The translations under genes were made by a program, and so were the position numbers. A stretch of 52,124 nucleotides of DNA from an uncultured Erysipelotrichaceae bacterium. GTDB lineage: Bacteria; Bacillota_I; Bacilli_A; Erysipelotrichales; Erysipelotrichaceae. The notes below the pieces were generated by a model. The model was given only the letters and a program-made list of their open reading frames with translations, did not search any database and was not told the DNA's origin. Positions 46,874 to 51,209 of the stretch are shown piece by piece. The stretch covers positions 1 to 52,124 of the forward strand of contig CASEPS010000007.1 of assembly GCA_949289855.1 (NCBI GenBank). The letters are read 5' to 3'. The stretch's first letter is position 1; each line of letters starts with the position of its first letter.

Positions 46874-48148
46874 TCAAATCAGATACTTTTTCTGCCACAA
46901 TTTCTTTCCAACGGCATCTCTGAACAGCACAAGCTGCGCATCTTTATCCATTTCTGTATCATTCCGCAGGGTTTTCTGCTGATAAAACTGTCCTAAGCAT
47001 TCAGAAAAGCGGGGAAAAGGAACCATGTAAATATCCCCGTTCCTTGCCAGAACATCATCTATTCCCTTTCCCTGCGACATATCCCATGTCAGTGCTTTGA
47101 TGACATAGTCTTCTTTCAAACGTTCATAGAGCTTCTTTTCCTGCAGAAACACATTCTCATTGAACACAAGGTCACCATCAAAGGCAAGGATGACTGTCTT
47201 TACCTTCTTCAGCTCTTTCAATACAGCAGAAATGCCATTACCTGCACCAATGCCCTGCAGGCTGATGGCAGTACAGCCAAAGTGATCCGCTGCCCGTATC
47301 GCTTTGAAGTGGCCTTCGGTAATGATTATTTCCTTCTCAACTTTATTGCGTATGACATCAATTGGAGAACCAGGTGAGGCTCCACCTTCTAACAGTTCCT
47401 TTGCCTTTGGATTTTCATTGATCCAGGAAGAAGAAAACCAGACATAGCGGGAATCGTATGCACTTTGCAATATATCCCGACGAATCTGAATACCCGCTAT
47501 ATTTCCATCTACTGTATGAATCGGAATACCGATACCTTCAGTAACTGACATATCGATTTTCCCGCTCTTCTTCCACCGGTAAAACCCGGGTATTTCTAAC
47601 AATATGCTTTCCGCAAAACCAGCATCATGTACCGCTTGGCACAAAGCAGGCAGGATGGATCTGTCCGGCATGGAGAAATATCCAAAGCGAACAATTTCCT
47701 CTTCCGTTATGCCACGGTCCAAAAGATAATTGTGATGGGCATCAGAAAGCTTCTTTCCACTTTTCAGCAAAGACATACCTTCGGAGAAGATGGAATAGAT
47801 GACATGGCGGACAGAAAGAGACGCACATGTAGTTTCCGTACGTTTTTCTTTCTGCTGAACAGGTATGGTTCTCTCATGGAGAAAATGTTCACCAAGAAGC
47901 GCAATCGCTTCTTCCCTGTCACAATGCCTTACCTTCATGAAGAGGTCAATACTGTTGCCAAATGCACCGCAGGAGAAGCATTTGAAGCGGTTGTTTAAAG
48001 AAAAGACCTTGAAAGATCCGGGATGATGGTCATCATGAAATGGACATAACCATTTCCTTGGGTTGTCTTCTTCCAATATCCACGCGGCAACCTCCCGAAT
48101 GTCTATTTCTTCCAAAATACGATCTTCAAAAGATTTCTTATTTTTCAT
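46874..48148 (-). CDS. DnaG-like protein with CHC2 zinc finger and TOPRIM domain
   Basis: 424 residues. The CHC2 primase finger (CPFHDDHHPGSF ... CFSCG) is at residues ~35-65, and a TOPRIM domain follows from about residue 260 (IIITEGHFKAIRAAD, LAFDGD). The central region is divergent, and the helicase-binding C-domain of DnaG is missing. Such proteins are common on plasmids, phages and integrated elements, so this is probably a second, element-type primase. The ATG lies inside the third of three 20-bp repeats. A TTG one codon earlier is possible. No good ribosome site. Confidence 0.82.
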   Translation of the reverse strand: MKNKKSFEDRILEEIDIREVAAWILEEDNPRKWLCPFHDDHHPGSFKVFSLNNRFKCFSCGAFGNSIDLFMKVRHCDREEAIALLGEHFLHERTIPVQQKEKRTETTCASLSVRHVIYSIFSEGMSLLKSGKKLSDAHHNYLLDRGITEEEIVRFGYFSMPDRSILPALCQAVHDAGFAESILLEIPGFYRWKKSGKIDMSVTEGIGIPIHTVDGNIAGIQIRRDILQSAYDSRYVWFSSSWINENPKAKELLEGGASPGSPIDVIRNKVEKEIIITEGHFKAIRAADHFGCTAISLQGIGAGNGISAVLKELKKVKTVILAFDGDLVFNENVFLQEKKLYERLKEDYVIKALTWDMSQGKGIDDVLARNGDIYMVPFPRFSECLGQFYQQKTLRNDTEMDKDAQLVLFRDAVGKKLWQKKYLI

Positions 48149-48200
48149 CAAAATCCACTCTTTTTCATCAAAATCAACTCTTTTTCATCAAAATCAACTC
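48141..48200. repeat. Three 20-bp tandem repeats at the start of the primase-like gene
   Basis: Unit TTTTTCATCAAAATCAACTC at 48161-48180 and 48181-48200 is exact, and 48141-48160 has one change (CCACTC). A further TTTT follows. On the minus strand every unit holds TTGATGAAAAA, so the true start codon is one of three copies. The upstream two form mini-frames ATG AAA AAG AGT TGA and a slightly longer one. Confidence 0.9.
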
Positions 48201-48207
48201 TTTTCTG

Positions 48208-48236
48208 TTGACAGAATACAGATTTCTCTGTAAACT
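48208..48236 (+). promoter_or_regulatory. Promoter of the candidate small RNA
   Basis: Perfect -35 TTGACA (48208-48213), 17-bp spacer, TAAACT (48231-48236). No plus-strand coding frame follows before the terminator at 48355. Predicted start is at about 48243. Confidence 0.7.
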
Positions 48237-48243
48237 AAAGGCA

Positions 48244-48259
48244 GTTAGTTAAGACTAAC
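48244..48259. promoter_or_regulatory. 16-bp dyad at the sRNA start, candidate metal-regulator box
   Basis: GTTAGT-TAAG-ACTAAC, perfect 6-bp arms, spanning about +2 to +17. Half-sites of the TTAG/CTAA kind are typical of DtxR/IdeR-family operators (known consensus built on TTAGGTTAG). A near copy is at 51182-51197. Confidence 0.5.
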
Positions 48260-48354
48260 AGTTGTGAGAACATAGAAGCACGCTGTCCTTCTATTCAATC
48301 GATTTCCAAAAAACCGTACTCAGTTCCTTCTTCATGTTCTCATAATACCTTTGC

Positions 48355-48378
48355 AAATCCGGGCAACCGGATTTTTTT
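48355..48378 (+). terminator. Terminator of the candidate small RNA
   Basis: Perfect 8-bp stem AAATCCGG/CCGGATTT with GCAA tetraloop and seven T in the tail. On the minus strand no T-run follows, so it belongs to plus-strand transcription. Confidence 0.9.
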
Positions 48379-48411: not shown

Positions 48412-50067
48412 TCACGCCTCTTCCTTCGTTCTTTTCAATTTCCGTTTTGCAACTTCAATAATACTTGTATGGAACACTTCATCTGGCAGCTTCAACAAAG
48501 AAGATATGCCAAAGTATGCAGCCATGACCACAATGCCATTCACCCCGAACTTCACAAAAGCAATGAGCTTCGAACCGGATGCCCCGTCAAGTCCTATGAA
48601 GCGAAGACCATAACATACGCCGAACATAACCACAAGGCATAGGGCACTCTTTATCGCAACCATCCAAACCTTTCTGAACTGGATGCCATACTTTTTGTGC
48701 ATCACTTTGAAGCTATGCACAATGATATAAATATTACCAGGTACGATGGATAATACACACCCCGGATAACCGATGAGCCAGATGAGCGGCACCATGATAA
48801 CCCCCTTGATCAATAGATTGACAAGCAGGCATTTCAATGCCTCCTTGCGCATACCTAAAGCCATCAACAGGTTTGTGACTACCGGTGTCATTGTTGCAAG
48901 GAATCCTTCTAAGGCAAGCCAGCGAAGGCAATCAGAAGCAGTTGAAGGATCGGCAGTATAGAAAAGAATATGATAAATATCCGACGCATACAGGAATATG
49001 CAGAAGGAAACAGGCAAGCCGATATACCAGATGATATTCAGGCAGTCCACAACATTGCGTCCGACTTTCTTATAGTCCCCTTCTGTACGGGCTGCGGTGA
49101 TATGCGGAATCAGGGCAGCCGCAAAGCCAGGAGAGAGAATCATCGGAATAGCCGTCATCTTTGTACCGACATAGTTGAAGGCGGAAAGAATGATATTCAT
49201 CTGTTCACTGCTGTAGCCATGGACCTGAAGACCAACCGGCAACAGAATGGAGTTATAAATGTCATCGGAGTAGCCAAATACCGCTACAAGAAGATACGGT
49301 ATGGCAAGGGCAATGAATTCCTTGAAGAGTTTCTTCTTGCGCACTGTCTTTGTTTTCTGATGACGTGCATCATCTTCTATCTCGACATAGTGCTTCTTGT
49401 CGAATCTAACAATCTGCAATATTCCGGCAATTGCCGCTATACTTGTGGATAATACGGCAGTATAGAGAGCGTATTTGCTGTCCAAATGCAGCACATAAAC
49501 AATGAGATATGCCATCGACAAGAGAAAGCCGACACGGAATACCTGTTCAAACACCTGGGAGACTGCATATTCGCCCATTTCTTTGCGTCCCTGCCAAAAG
49601 CCGCGAAAGCTGGATAACAATGGTACAAAGAAGATGGCAAGCGACAAGATGCGCAAGCAGTTGCCCATGACGAACGAACCATCTTGTCCTGCCACCAGTG
49701 TTCCCAAAGGCCATGACAGCACAAACAGGATGACCATGCCAACAAAGCCGGTAAAACCCATCAGAAGATTGGAAAGCTGTTTGATCTTCCGCAGAGCCCT
49801 CGCGTCATTGCGCACGGTATACTTGGCAACAAGTGTAGATACAGCAAAGGGAAAACCAGCTGTGAATACATTGAGAATGTAACTGTAAATACGATATGCT
49901 GTACCGTAGTAGCTCATGTAGGCATCACTGCCAAGAATGGAAGATAATGGAATGGAATAAAAAAGTCCAAGCAGCTTGGCAAAGAAAAGACCAGCAGTGC
50001 CAACAAGACCACTCAGTACAATACTCTTTTTTACCTGTTCTTTTTTCGCTTCTTTTTTCTCACTCAT
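48412..50067 (-). CDS. MurJ/SpoVB-family (YtgP-like) polysaccharide or lipid II flippase
   Basis: 551 residues with about 14 membrane helices. The N-terminal GLVGTAGLFFAKLLGLFYSIPL and YGTAYRIYSYIL segments are typical of the YtgP/SpoVB branch of MOP flippases (core AKLLGLFYSIPL). YtgP homologues move lipid II across the membrane for peptidoglycan synthesis. GAGG lies 6 bases before the ATG. It converges with the candidate sRNA, whose terminator hairpin sits just past its stop. Confidence 0.88.
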   Translation of the reverse strand: MSEKKEAKKEQVKKSIVLSGLVGTAGLFFAKLLGLFYSIPLSSILGSDAYMSYYGTAYRIYSYILNVFTAGFPFAVSTLVAKYTVRNDARALRKIKQLSNLLMGFTGFVGMVILFVLSWPLGTLVAGQDGSFVMGNCLRILSLAIFFVPLLSSFRGFWQGRKEMGEYAVSQVFEQVFRVGFLLSMAYLIVYVLHLDSKYALYTAVLSTSIAAIAGILQIVRFDKKHYVEIEDDARHQKTKTVRKKKLFKEFIALAIPYLLVAVFGYSDDIYNSILLPVGLQVHGYSSEQMNIILSAFNYVGTKMTAIPMILSPGFAAALIPHITAARTEGDYKKVGRNVVDCLNIIWYIGLPVSFCIFLYASDIYHILFYTADPSTASDCLRWLALEGFLATMTPVVTNLLMALGMRKEALKCLLVNLLIKGVIMVPLIWLIGYPGCVLSIVPGNIYIIVHSFKVMHKKYGIQFRKVWMVAIKSALCLVVMFGVCYGLRFIGLDGASGSKLIAFVKFGVNGIVVMAAYFGISSLLKLPDEVFHTSIIEVAKRKLKRTKEEA

Positions 50068-50204: not shown

Positions 50205-50627
50205 TCAGACAAGCATTTTTCCAAGGTTTTCACATGAGGCAAGTGCATCCCCATCCGGGTAACCATTGGCGGTGACACCATCATCGACAAGGATTGCGCC
50301 ATCTTCTTTTATTCTTTCTTCAAAGTTGCGCATCCATGTGCCATCACCCCAGCCATAGCTGCCAAACAAGCCAACTTTCTTTCCGGATAACATGCCTTCA
50401 ATCGATGAGAGCATCGGTTCAAACACCGTTTCTTCAAGCACCTCCATTCCCATAGCCGGACACCCCAGGGCAAAGGATGAATATTCACTCATCTTTCCCG
50501 TATCTAATGCATCCGCAGAAATCAGTTCTGCTTCTCCTCCGGCATTTTGCACACCTTGGGCAACAGACTCTGCCATCGCTGCTGTGTTGCCTGTACCACT
50601 CCAATAAATTACTGCTGTTTTACTCAT
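50205..50627 (-). CDS. Flavodoxin
   Basis: 140-residue FMN electron carrier. The FMN phosphate loop WSGTGNTAAMA, the aromatic-containing loop GCPAMGME and the FGSYGWGDGTW loop are all present. Flavodoxin replaces ferredoxin when iron is short. Its place after DUF3793 and next to feoB fits an iron-limitation role. AGGAGG precedes the ATG, and it overlaps DUF3793 by 8 bases. Confidence 0.94.
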   Translation of the reverse strand: MSKTAVIYWSGTGNTAAMAESVAQGVQNAGGEAELISADALDTGKMSEYSSFALGCPAMGMEVLEETVFEPMLSSIEGMLSGKKVGLFGSYGWGDGTWMRNFEERIKEDGAILVDDGVTANGYPDGDALASCENLGKMLV

Positions 50628-51174
50628 TTTTATTTTCCTCCTGAATAAGCTCTTTCAACGTTTTTCCCTGTGCAATCGCACATGCATACTTTTCTGTGCA
50701 ATTCTGATATGCCATAAAAACCCGCTTTGTTTCTTCTACATTGCCATACACTTTCCAAAGTCCTGAGAAAAGACATTTCTTCTTCTCCATAAATCCGATG
50801 ACATCGCATAAGGGATACCCAAGAAACAAACCGATTTCATGGGGAAAGTTATCTTCAGAAAGTCGTTCCAGCAATCTGGAAAGACATTTCTCTACACTGC
50901 CTGTATCATAGCCTAACAATTCAAGCAGGTTACTTGCCTCGTGGCAGGATAAATCCCTTTCCAGCATTGCCCTGCGGTAAATGTAAATTCTTGCGGCTGA
51001 CCGGGTGTAGCCAAGCACAGATGCGTGCATACCACCATGCACAAGAATCGCATTCAGTTCATCAATCTCCTGCATCAGGGATTGCCTACTATTATATTCA
51101 CTCGTAAAAAGACTTCCTGTTTTAATGCCCGAAAGTGTCGGCGCACAATATCTGACGATCGTTTCTTCTGACAT
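50620..51174 (-). CDS. DUF3793 protein, flavodoxin-associated
   Basis: 184 residues. The start VRYCAPTLSGIKTGSLFTSE and the later GLFLGYPLCDVIGFMEKK and GLWKVYGNVEETKRVF are the three DUF3793 signatures (cores APTLSGIKTGSLF, FLGYPLCDV, WKVYGN). The family clusters with flavodoxin and Feo genes, but its function is unknown. No clear ribosome site precedes the ATG. TTAACA-N18-TAACAA with the dyad in the spacer would start transcription at the ATG. Confidence 0.85.
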   Translation of the reverse strand: MSEETIVRYCAPTLSGIKTGSLFTSEYNSRQSLMQEIDELNAILVHGGMHASVLGYTRSAARIYIYRRAMLERDLSCHEASNLLELLGYDTGSVEKCLSRLLERLSEDNFPHEIGLFLGYPLCDVIGFMEKKKCLFSGLWKVYGNVEETKRVFMAYQNCTEKYACAIAQGKTLKELIQEENKNE

Positions 51175-51179
51175 ATTCT

Positions 51180-51209
51180 TTGTTAGTCGCGTCTAACTCA
51201 TTGTGTTAA
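51180..51209 (-). promoter_or_regulatory. DUF3793-flavodoxin promoter region with dyad box
   Basis: The dyad GTTAG-N6-CTAAC (51182-51197) lies 7 bases before the ATG at 51174. It sits between a possible -35 TTAACA (51209-51204) and -10 TAACAA (51185-51180, weak). The arms match those of the sRNA dyad at 48244. A metal-dependent repressor is the likely binder. Confidence 0.5.

Follow-up and report, generated by a model that had tools for sequence, protein, structure and literature searches.

A candidate metal-repressed small RNA with predicted iron-sulfur targets in an Erysipelotrichaceae genome and its Solobacterium-like relatives

The window analyzed here, a 52,124-nt stretch of DNA from an uncultured Erysipelotrichaceae bacterium, contains a promoter and an intrinsic terminator that frame about 135 nt in which no start-to-stop frame of at least 15 aa is present (48243-48378). 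This raises the question of what the unit makes and what its product could be for. A first-pass annotation had proposed a structured small RNA (sRNA) of iron limitation, and that interpretation is supported by the analysis described below. Our reading, to which we assign a probability of roughly three in four, is that the plus strand at 48243-48378 encodes a trans-acting, iron-sparing sRNA that is repressed by metal and whose loop would block the ribosome sites of iron-sulfur mRNAs.

The transcription unit and its predicted fold

The promoter, the dyad, the frameless RNA, and the terminator described in the first-pass annotation were all confirmed at the positions listed in Table 1. The promoter matches the consensus at 10 of 12 positions and is the top match within 4.3 kb, where promoter-like matches as a class show no excess (8 versus 8.3 in shuffled sequences). 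The dyad GTTAGTTAAGACTAAC begins 7 nt past the -10 element and is located at the predicted transcription start. Downstream of the terminator there is no plus-strand gene, and the flippase found there is encoded on the other strand. A search of Rfam 15 returned neither a housekeeping RNA nor any other family for the window RNA, also at permissive thresholds, which settles a point that the annotation had raised.

Table 1. Positions of the sRNA locus elements and neighboring features in the window
Feature	Position	Strand	Remarks
Orphan CHC2/DUF3854 primase gene	46874..48151	-	Neighbor, judged to be outside the sRNA system; absent from the RNA-bearing locus of sister genome G033
Promoter	48208..48236	+	-35 TTGACA (48208-48213), N17 spacer, -10 TAAACT (48231-48236)
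Predicted small non-coding RNA	48243..48378	+	About 135 nt; fold, no ORF, stand-alone promoter and terminator
Operator dyad GTTAGTTAAGACTAAC	48244..48259	+	DtxR-like TTAG-N6-CTAA core; doubles as the 5' hairpin of the RNA
Long-range stem, 5' arm	48261..48278	+	Predicted fold
Predicted seed CUGUCCUUCUAUUCAAU	48283..48299	+	Unpaired in the fold save CUG (48283-48285)
Second CU-rich motif UUCCUUCUUC	48324..48333	+	Partly inside the stem
Long-range stem, 3' arm	48327..48346	+	Predicted fold; contains AUGUUCUC (48334-48341)
Intrinsic terminator AAATCCGG-GCAA-CCGGATTT	48355..48378	+	8-bp stem, GCAA loop, T-run
MurJ/polysaccharide flippase gene	48412..50067	-	Syntenic neighbor
DUF3793 gene	50620..51174	-	Pfam PF12672; start at 51174, under the second operator
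Second operator dyad GTTAGTCGCGTCTAAC	51182..51197	-	7 nt ahead of the DUF3793-flavodoxin genes

The predicted fold of the window RNA has an energy of -37.4 kcal/mol, as compared to -20.2 ± 3.0 kcal/mol for dinucleotide shuffles (z = -5.7), and none of 200 shuffles folded as well. In this fold, a long-range stem pairs GUUGUGAGAACAU-AGAAG with CUUC-UUC-AUGUUCUCAUAAU; the stem that had been annotated as 9 bp is present and is predicted to be longer than that. UCCUUC is unpaired in the fold.

The primase gene that precedes the unit is plasmid-like. Among 70 genus genomes, only G082 (L137) besides this one has a close relative of it, and in both genomes the gene has the flippase on one side and a ROK gene on the other. 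Scans for this primase across viral and genome contigs returned nothing. The primase gene has, at its 5' end, a 20-bp unit repeated three times in tandem (48146-48205, minus strand GAGTTGATTTTGATGAAAAA); every copy holds an ATG, and the array could possibly be a variable start region.

The dyad and its copies across the genus

A near-identical dyad had been noted 7 bases ahead of the DUF3793-flavodoxin genes, and we recovered it as the second operator in Table 1. Two exact dyads in the 52-kb window compare with approximately 0.05 expected by arithmetic on ten fixed bases, and when two mismatches are tolerated the window shows no excess (7 versus 13.3). The organism's own genome has five exact GTTAG-N6-CTAAC sites, namely at the sRNA, at the DUF3793-flavodoxin genes (51182), and ahead of an ABC-transporter-like gene, with the other two lying around the gene for a ZIP metal transporter. 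Across six sister genomes, 54 exact dyads were found versus 3 occurrences of a reversed control pattern. These copies are placed just past the -10 elements of feoA/feoB, ZIP, DUF3793 (again with the gene downstream of the dyad), HMA, HypA-like, and other genes, and copies also occur at FeoB-associated genes. Judged by these counts and placements, the dyad is a real, lineage-wide metal operator, and its predicted recurrence at further iron genes was borne out in the organism's own genome and genus-wide. Some species have an unusually large operator regulon that takes in TetR-, ABC-, and hydrolase-like genes; genome G030, for instance, has 22 exact dyads.

The operator core TTAG-N6-CTAA agrees with positions 1 to 14 of the 19-bp DtxR consensus TTAGGTTAG(G/C)CTAACCTAA (PMC1382209), the full 19-mer being without a match. 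The operator looks more like a DtxR-type than a Fur-type site. A DtxR-family repressor gene is found in G082, where it is divergent from feoA with a dyad in between. The organism's own genome encodes one protein matching the DtxR-family model searched (contig C80) and one matching Fur, so that the identity of the repressor is something we infer; it most likely belongs to the DtxR family.

Three further observations were made on feo genes in the same genome. A second feoA-feoB pair is located on contig C10 (L269:3989-6313), which also carries a Fur-family gene (C10:1493), and 13 nt at the feoA start on this contig are perfectly complementary to the sRNA loop (GTTTTTTGGAAAT). On contig C27 (L136, approximately 2500-2700), a feo-type promoter, TTGACA-N17-TAAACT, is accompanied by two dyads, and an IS110-like sequence directly follows its ribosome site and ATG. 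Since the window contig ends within feoB, the window feoB and the C27 promoter may be parts of one broken or misassembled feo operon.

Relatives of the RNA in the Solobacterium lineage

No homologs of the window RNA were found by plain DNA search in 60 relatives, by a single-sequence model (R1) in 70 genomes, or among phages and plasmids. A relative in the sister genome G033 surfaced only via the operator and synteny. The G033 locus has the order feoB-flavodoxin-flippase-RNA-ROK in the same orientation as the window, with protein identities of 59 to 64% for ROK and 69% for the flippase. Its promoter-operator region reads TTGACA-N17-TATATT-N7-GTTAGTTAATGCTAAC and is followed by a structured RNA. 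The two RNA bodies have GTGAG..CATA..AA and TCCTTC-n-ATTCAATC in common; their local alignment score of 37 was equaled by 47 of 2000 shuffles, which is modest by itself. In G033, an insertion sequence with the ends CAATGTCATTAAG and CTTAATGACATTG (C7, L117:2868-4580) lies directly 3' of AAATCCCGGGCAA, at the point that is occupied in the window by AAATCCGGGCAA of the terminator. A strong terminator inside this element (L117:2902-2938) could end the G033 RNA instead.

A search of genus members for the dyad followed by TCCTTC uncovered a family of RNAs in about 20 Solobacterium-like species. The pattern TTGAC[AG]-N17-TANNNT-N7-dyad is exact in all 20 family loci examined, and two loop motifs of the anti-Shine-Dalgarno type, ACUCCUUCA and GUUCUCCU (also given as (G)AUGUUCUCCU), are conserved. 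The annotation had pointed to covariation in relatives as a check, and covariation was found to be strong. With the window RNA left out, the arms of the helix P2 pair with their own partners at a mean of -16.7 kcal/mol versus -8.3 kcal/mol (sd 3.3) when partners are swapped, and none of 20,000 permutations was as good. In the alignment, pairing holds in 88.6% of cells, and covariation scores 0.539 versus 0.148 for shuffles and 0.04 to 0.08 with the partner slid; this alignment is model-fitted and leans towards structure, a bias from which the swap test is free. No relative matched a family in Rfam 15. When about 85,000 species genomes were scanned with a pattern, 24 places came up, 21 of which fall within the lineage: 20 carry Solobacterium or Erysipelotrichaceae names, and one (UBA3826), labeled Lachnospiraceae, is counted in the lineage as near-identical to the member in G028. 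The other three (Leptospiraceae, Pseudomonas, and Treponemataceae) look like chance matches. Most family loci adjoin csoR-copA, which is transcribed divergently, whereas the G033 and window copies are located by the flippase instead. The divergent arrangement in most species (e.g., L177, L186, and L164) suggests cross-talk between iron and copper control.

The place of the window RNA in this family was assessed with a covariance model, R2, built from five other species with the window and G033 excluded. R2 recognized the G033 RNA (E = 0.0014) and did not find the window RNA. The canonical register of P2, a helix directly outside both loop motifs, is absent from the window RNA, in which the corresponding arms reach just -5.7 kcal/mol and a different, longer stem is predicted to close the loop. 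The letters flanking both loop motifs also differ from those of the relatives, and AUGUUCUC, the match to the relatives' second loop motif, is paired in the window RNA. The window does have the family promoter-operator, TTGAC[AG]-N17-TANNNT-N7-GTTAG-N6-CTAAC, and the gene order of the model-recognized G033 locus. By promoter, operator, and position, then, the window RNA is the counterpart of the G033 RNA. Because R2 does not match it, we call it a diverged, syntenic relative of the family rather than a model-supported member.

Predicted targets, alternative readings, and known iron-sparing sRNAs

Predicted targets were sought in about 1.8 of the 2.3 Mb of the organism's own genome, a portion that gave 1540 gene starts. 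With 15 nt (TGAATAGAAGGACAG, 48283-48297), an [FeFe]-hydrogenase gene on contig C17 (PF02906 plus 4Fe-4S domains) has at its ribosome site the longest perfect complementarity to the loop among these starts. The second longest, 14 nt (ATTGAATAGAAGGA, 48286-48299), is at the ribosome site of a gene for a NUBPL/Mrp iron-sulfur carrier ATPase on contig C6 (PF10609). These two matches give in silico substance to the annotation's remark that a CU-rich stretch is complementary to ribosome sites. Two starts with at least 14 nt occurred for 70 of 20,000 dinucleotide-shuffled loops, and two iron-sulfur genes with at least 14 nt for none of 20,000, also when the CU motifs were kept. Genes with an iron-sulfur motif (C..C..C...C or C...C..C; 30 of 1540 genes, by a definition fixed after the first hits had been viewed) are enriched, making up 4 of the top 30 versus 0.9, a count that none of 48 shuffles reached, and 7 of the top 150 versus 3.5. 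According to Pfam, the top 12 include a radical SAM (MiaB-like) protein, an Fe-ADH-like fragment, the hydrogenase, a [2Fe-2S] thioredoxin-like ferredoxin, and NUBPL. In a random comparison, 2 of the 29 genes scanned were iron-sulfur genes, both radical SAM (one further drawn gene was unscanned). The MiaB-like radical SAM gene, which is the top target by energy, was set aside, as the start called for it probably lies too far upstream.

Hybridization energy over all genes is no lower for the loop than for shuffled loops; it is lower for the iron-sulfur subset only. Outside the Shine-Dalgarno core, other species do not conserve the NUBPL pairing, and no co-evolution was detected (p about 0.18 without the window). 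A pattern search with an extended seed for targets of the canonical loop in 12 members returned few, unrelated genes, and several of the matches were the sRNA's own reverse strand. In its own genome, the window RNA presents in silico one feature of the iron-sparing class, an unpaired stretch whose complement is found at ribosome sites of iron-protein mRNAs.

Sequence shows the geometry of promoter and operator, the operator regulon, the complementarities, and, by covariation, the structure of the relatives' RNAs; expression, iron as the signal, the identity of the repressor, and the block of translation are inferred. Our current hypothesis is as follows. When iron is ample, a metal-loaded repressor would occupy the dyad at +1 and block transcription. 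When iron is short, the repressor would leave, and the RNA would be made alongside the iron uptake genes and flavodoxin-type genes that belong to its regulon. The long-range stem would present a single-stranded loop with UCCUUC motifs, which would pair with Shine-Dalgarno regions and block translation of dispensable iron-sulfur enzymes. The best predicted targets in this species are the [FeFe]-hydrogenase and the NUBPL/Mrp iron-sulfur carrier.

Other readings of the locus were weighed against this hypothesis. An sRNA of the same type could answer to manganese or another metal through an MntR-like member of the DtxR family and would then not be iron-sparing. DtxR-family repressors can also sense manganese, the operator is found ahead of ZIP genes too, csoR-copA copper genes adjoin most relatives, and the genome has both a Fur-family and a DtxR-family gene as candidate repressors. 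We consider this reading unlikely. The operators at feoA/feoB, at FeoB-associated genes, and at DUF3793-flavodoxin genes point to iron, and so does the iron-sulfur bias among the predicted targets. A slightly smaller chance is given to a structured RNA of independent origin that has a metal operator and matches its targets by chance. That R2 misses the window RNA and that the canonical helix register is absent would fit such an origin, but the promoter-operator geometry is identical to that of the family, the locus is syntenic with the model-supported member in G033 and has TCCTTC-n-ATTCAATC in common with it, and the target statistics argue against chance.

Two readings without a trans-acting sRNA appear far less probable. 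One is a cis action on the neighboring, mobile-type orphan primase gene, like that of plasmid countertranscripts on rep genes, since the RNA lies on the strand opposite to that gene's upstream region. Control of the primase is very unlikely, because the RNA is present at the corresponding place in G033, where the primase is missing, and the primase is present in G082, where the RNA is missing, and plasmid-type countertranscript control was dropped on this evidence; other relatives adjoin csoR-copA, and the operator ties the RNA to metal genes. The RNA could also be a leader, an attenuator, or the mRNA of a small protein, given its intergenic position and the fact that many structured bacterial RNAs with terminators are leaders. 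This we regard as the most improbable reading, because nothing follows on the plus strand (the flippase being on the other) and no frame is common to the relatives; the window RNA itself lacks a frame of at least 15 aa, and loop lengths vary among relatives by non-multiples of three.

The iron-sparing sRNA that we favor could be taken one step further. In this extension, an undescribed, lineage-wide family of iron-sparing sRNAs has stems that drift freely under compensation, and the loop in the window's branch has been re-aimed, with unusually long perfect seeds of 14 to 15 nt, at hydrogenase and iron-sulfur-carrier mRNAs. We put it forward tentatively, at somewhat less than even confidence. 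If it is true, the family would be a natural series in which to watch sRNA targets change, and iron supply would be linked to hydrogen production in gut anaerobes. With about 20 species and strong covariation, the family is ready for an Rfam-style model and comparative target studies.

To our knowledge, no iron-sparing sRNA is known in the Erysipelotrichales, and a literature search for one in this order found none. With the sRNA described here, anaerobic gut bacteria would gain an independent case, one probably controlled by a repressor of the DtxR type, and with the [FeFe]-hydrogenase among its predicted targets the supply of iron might govern how much hydrogen fermentation releases. The first-pass annotation had drawn a parallel to RyhB and FsrA. 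RyhB of enterobacteria is Fur- and Hfq-dependent, and the likeness to it is in the functional idea of an iron-repressed, iron-sparing sRNA; the predicted pairing mode is closer to that of FsrA and IsrR. As the operator appears to be DtxR-like and not Fur-like, the regulatory parallel is closer to MrsI and IdeR than to RyhB. Known iron-sparing sRNAs come from few well-studied bacteria and have no sequence or synteny in common (PMC9410917). MrsI of Mycobacterium tuberculosis, which has a site for the DtxR-family regulator IdeR in its promoter (PMC8628891), differs in being actinobacterial, with a six-nt seed, other targets, and no recognized sequence relation. FsrA of Bacillus subtilis is an iron-repressed sRNA of the Bacillota that places a C-rich motif on Shine-Dalgarno sequences and lowers iron-containing enzymes (PMC9410917). 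The predicted pairing of the loop with Shine-Dalgarno regions resembles that of FsrA, but FsrA is under Fur and its structure differs. IsrR, an iron-sparing sRNA found throughout the genus Staphylococcus, has operator boxes at its promoter, and several of its C-rich regions are unpaired and directed at the ribosome sites of iron-sulfur mRNAs (PMC9410917). Its two boxes are Fur boxes. The sequences of its stems H1 and H2 are conserved and covary little, in contrast to P2 of the new family, which covaries strongly. No family in Rfam 15 matched the window RNA or its relatives, which gives no sign of homology to FsrA, IsrR, MrsI, or RyhB, the sequence comparison with IsrR being through Rfam only. 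Taken together, the best reading of these comparisons is that the sRNA would work like FsrA and IsrR but is unrelated to them.
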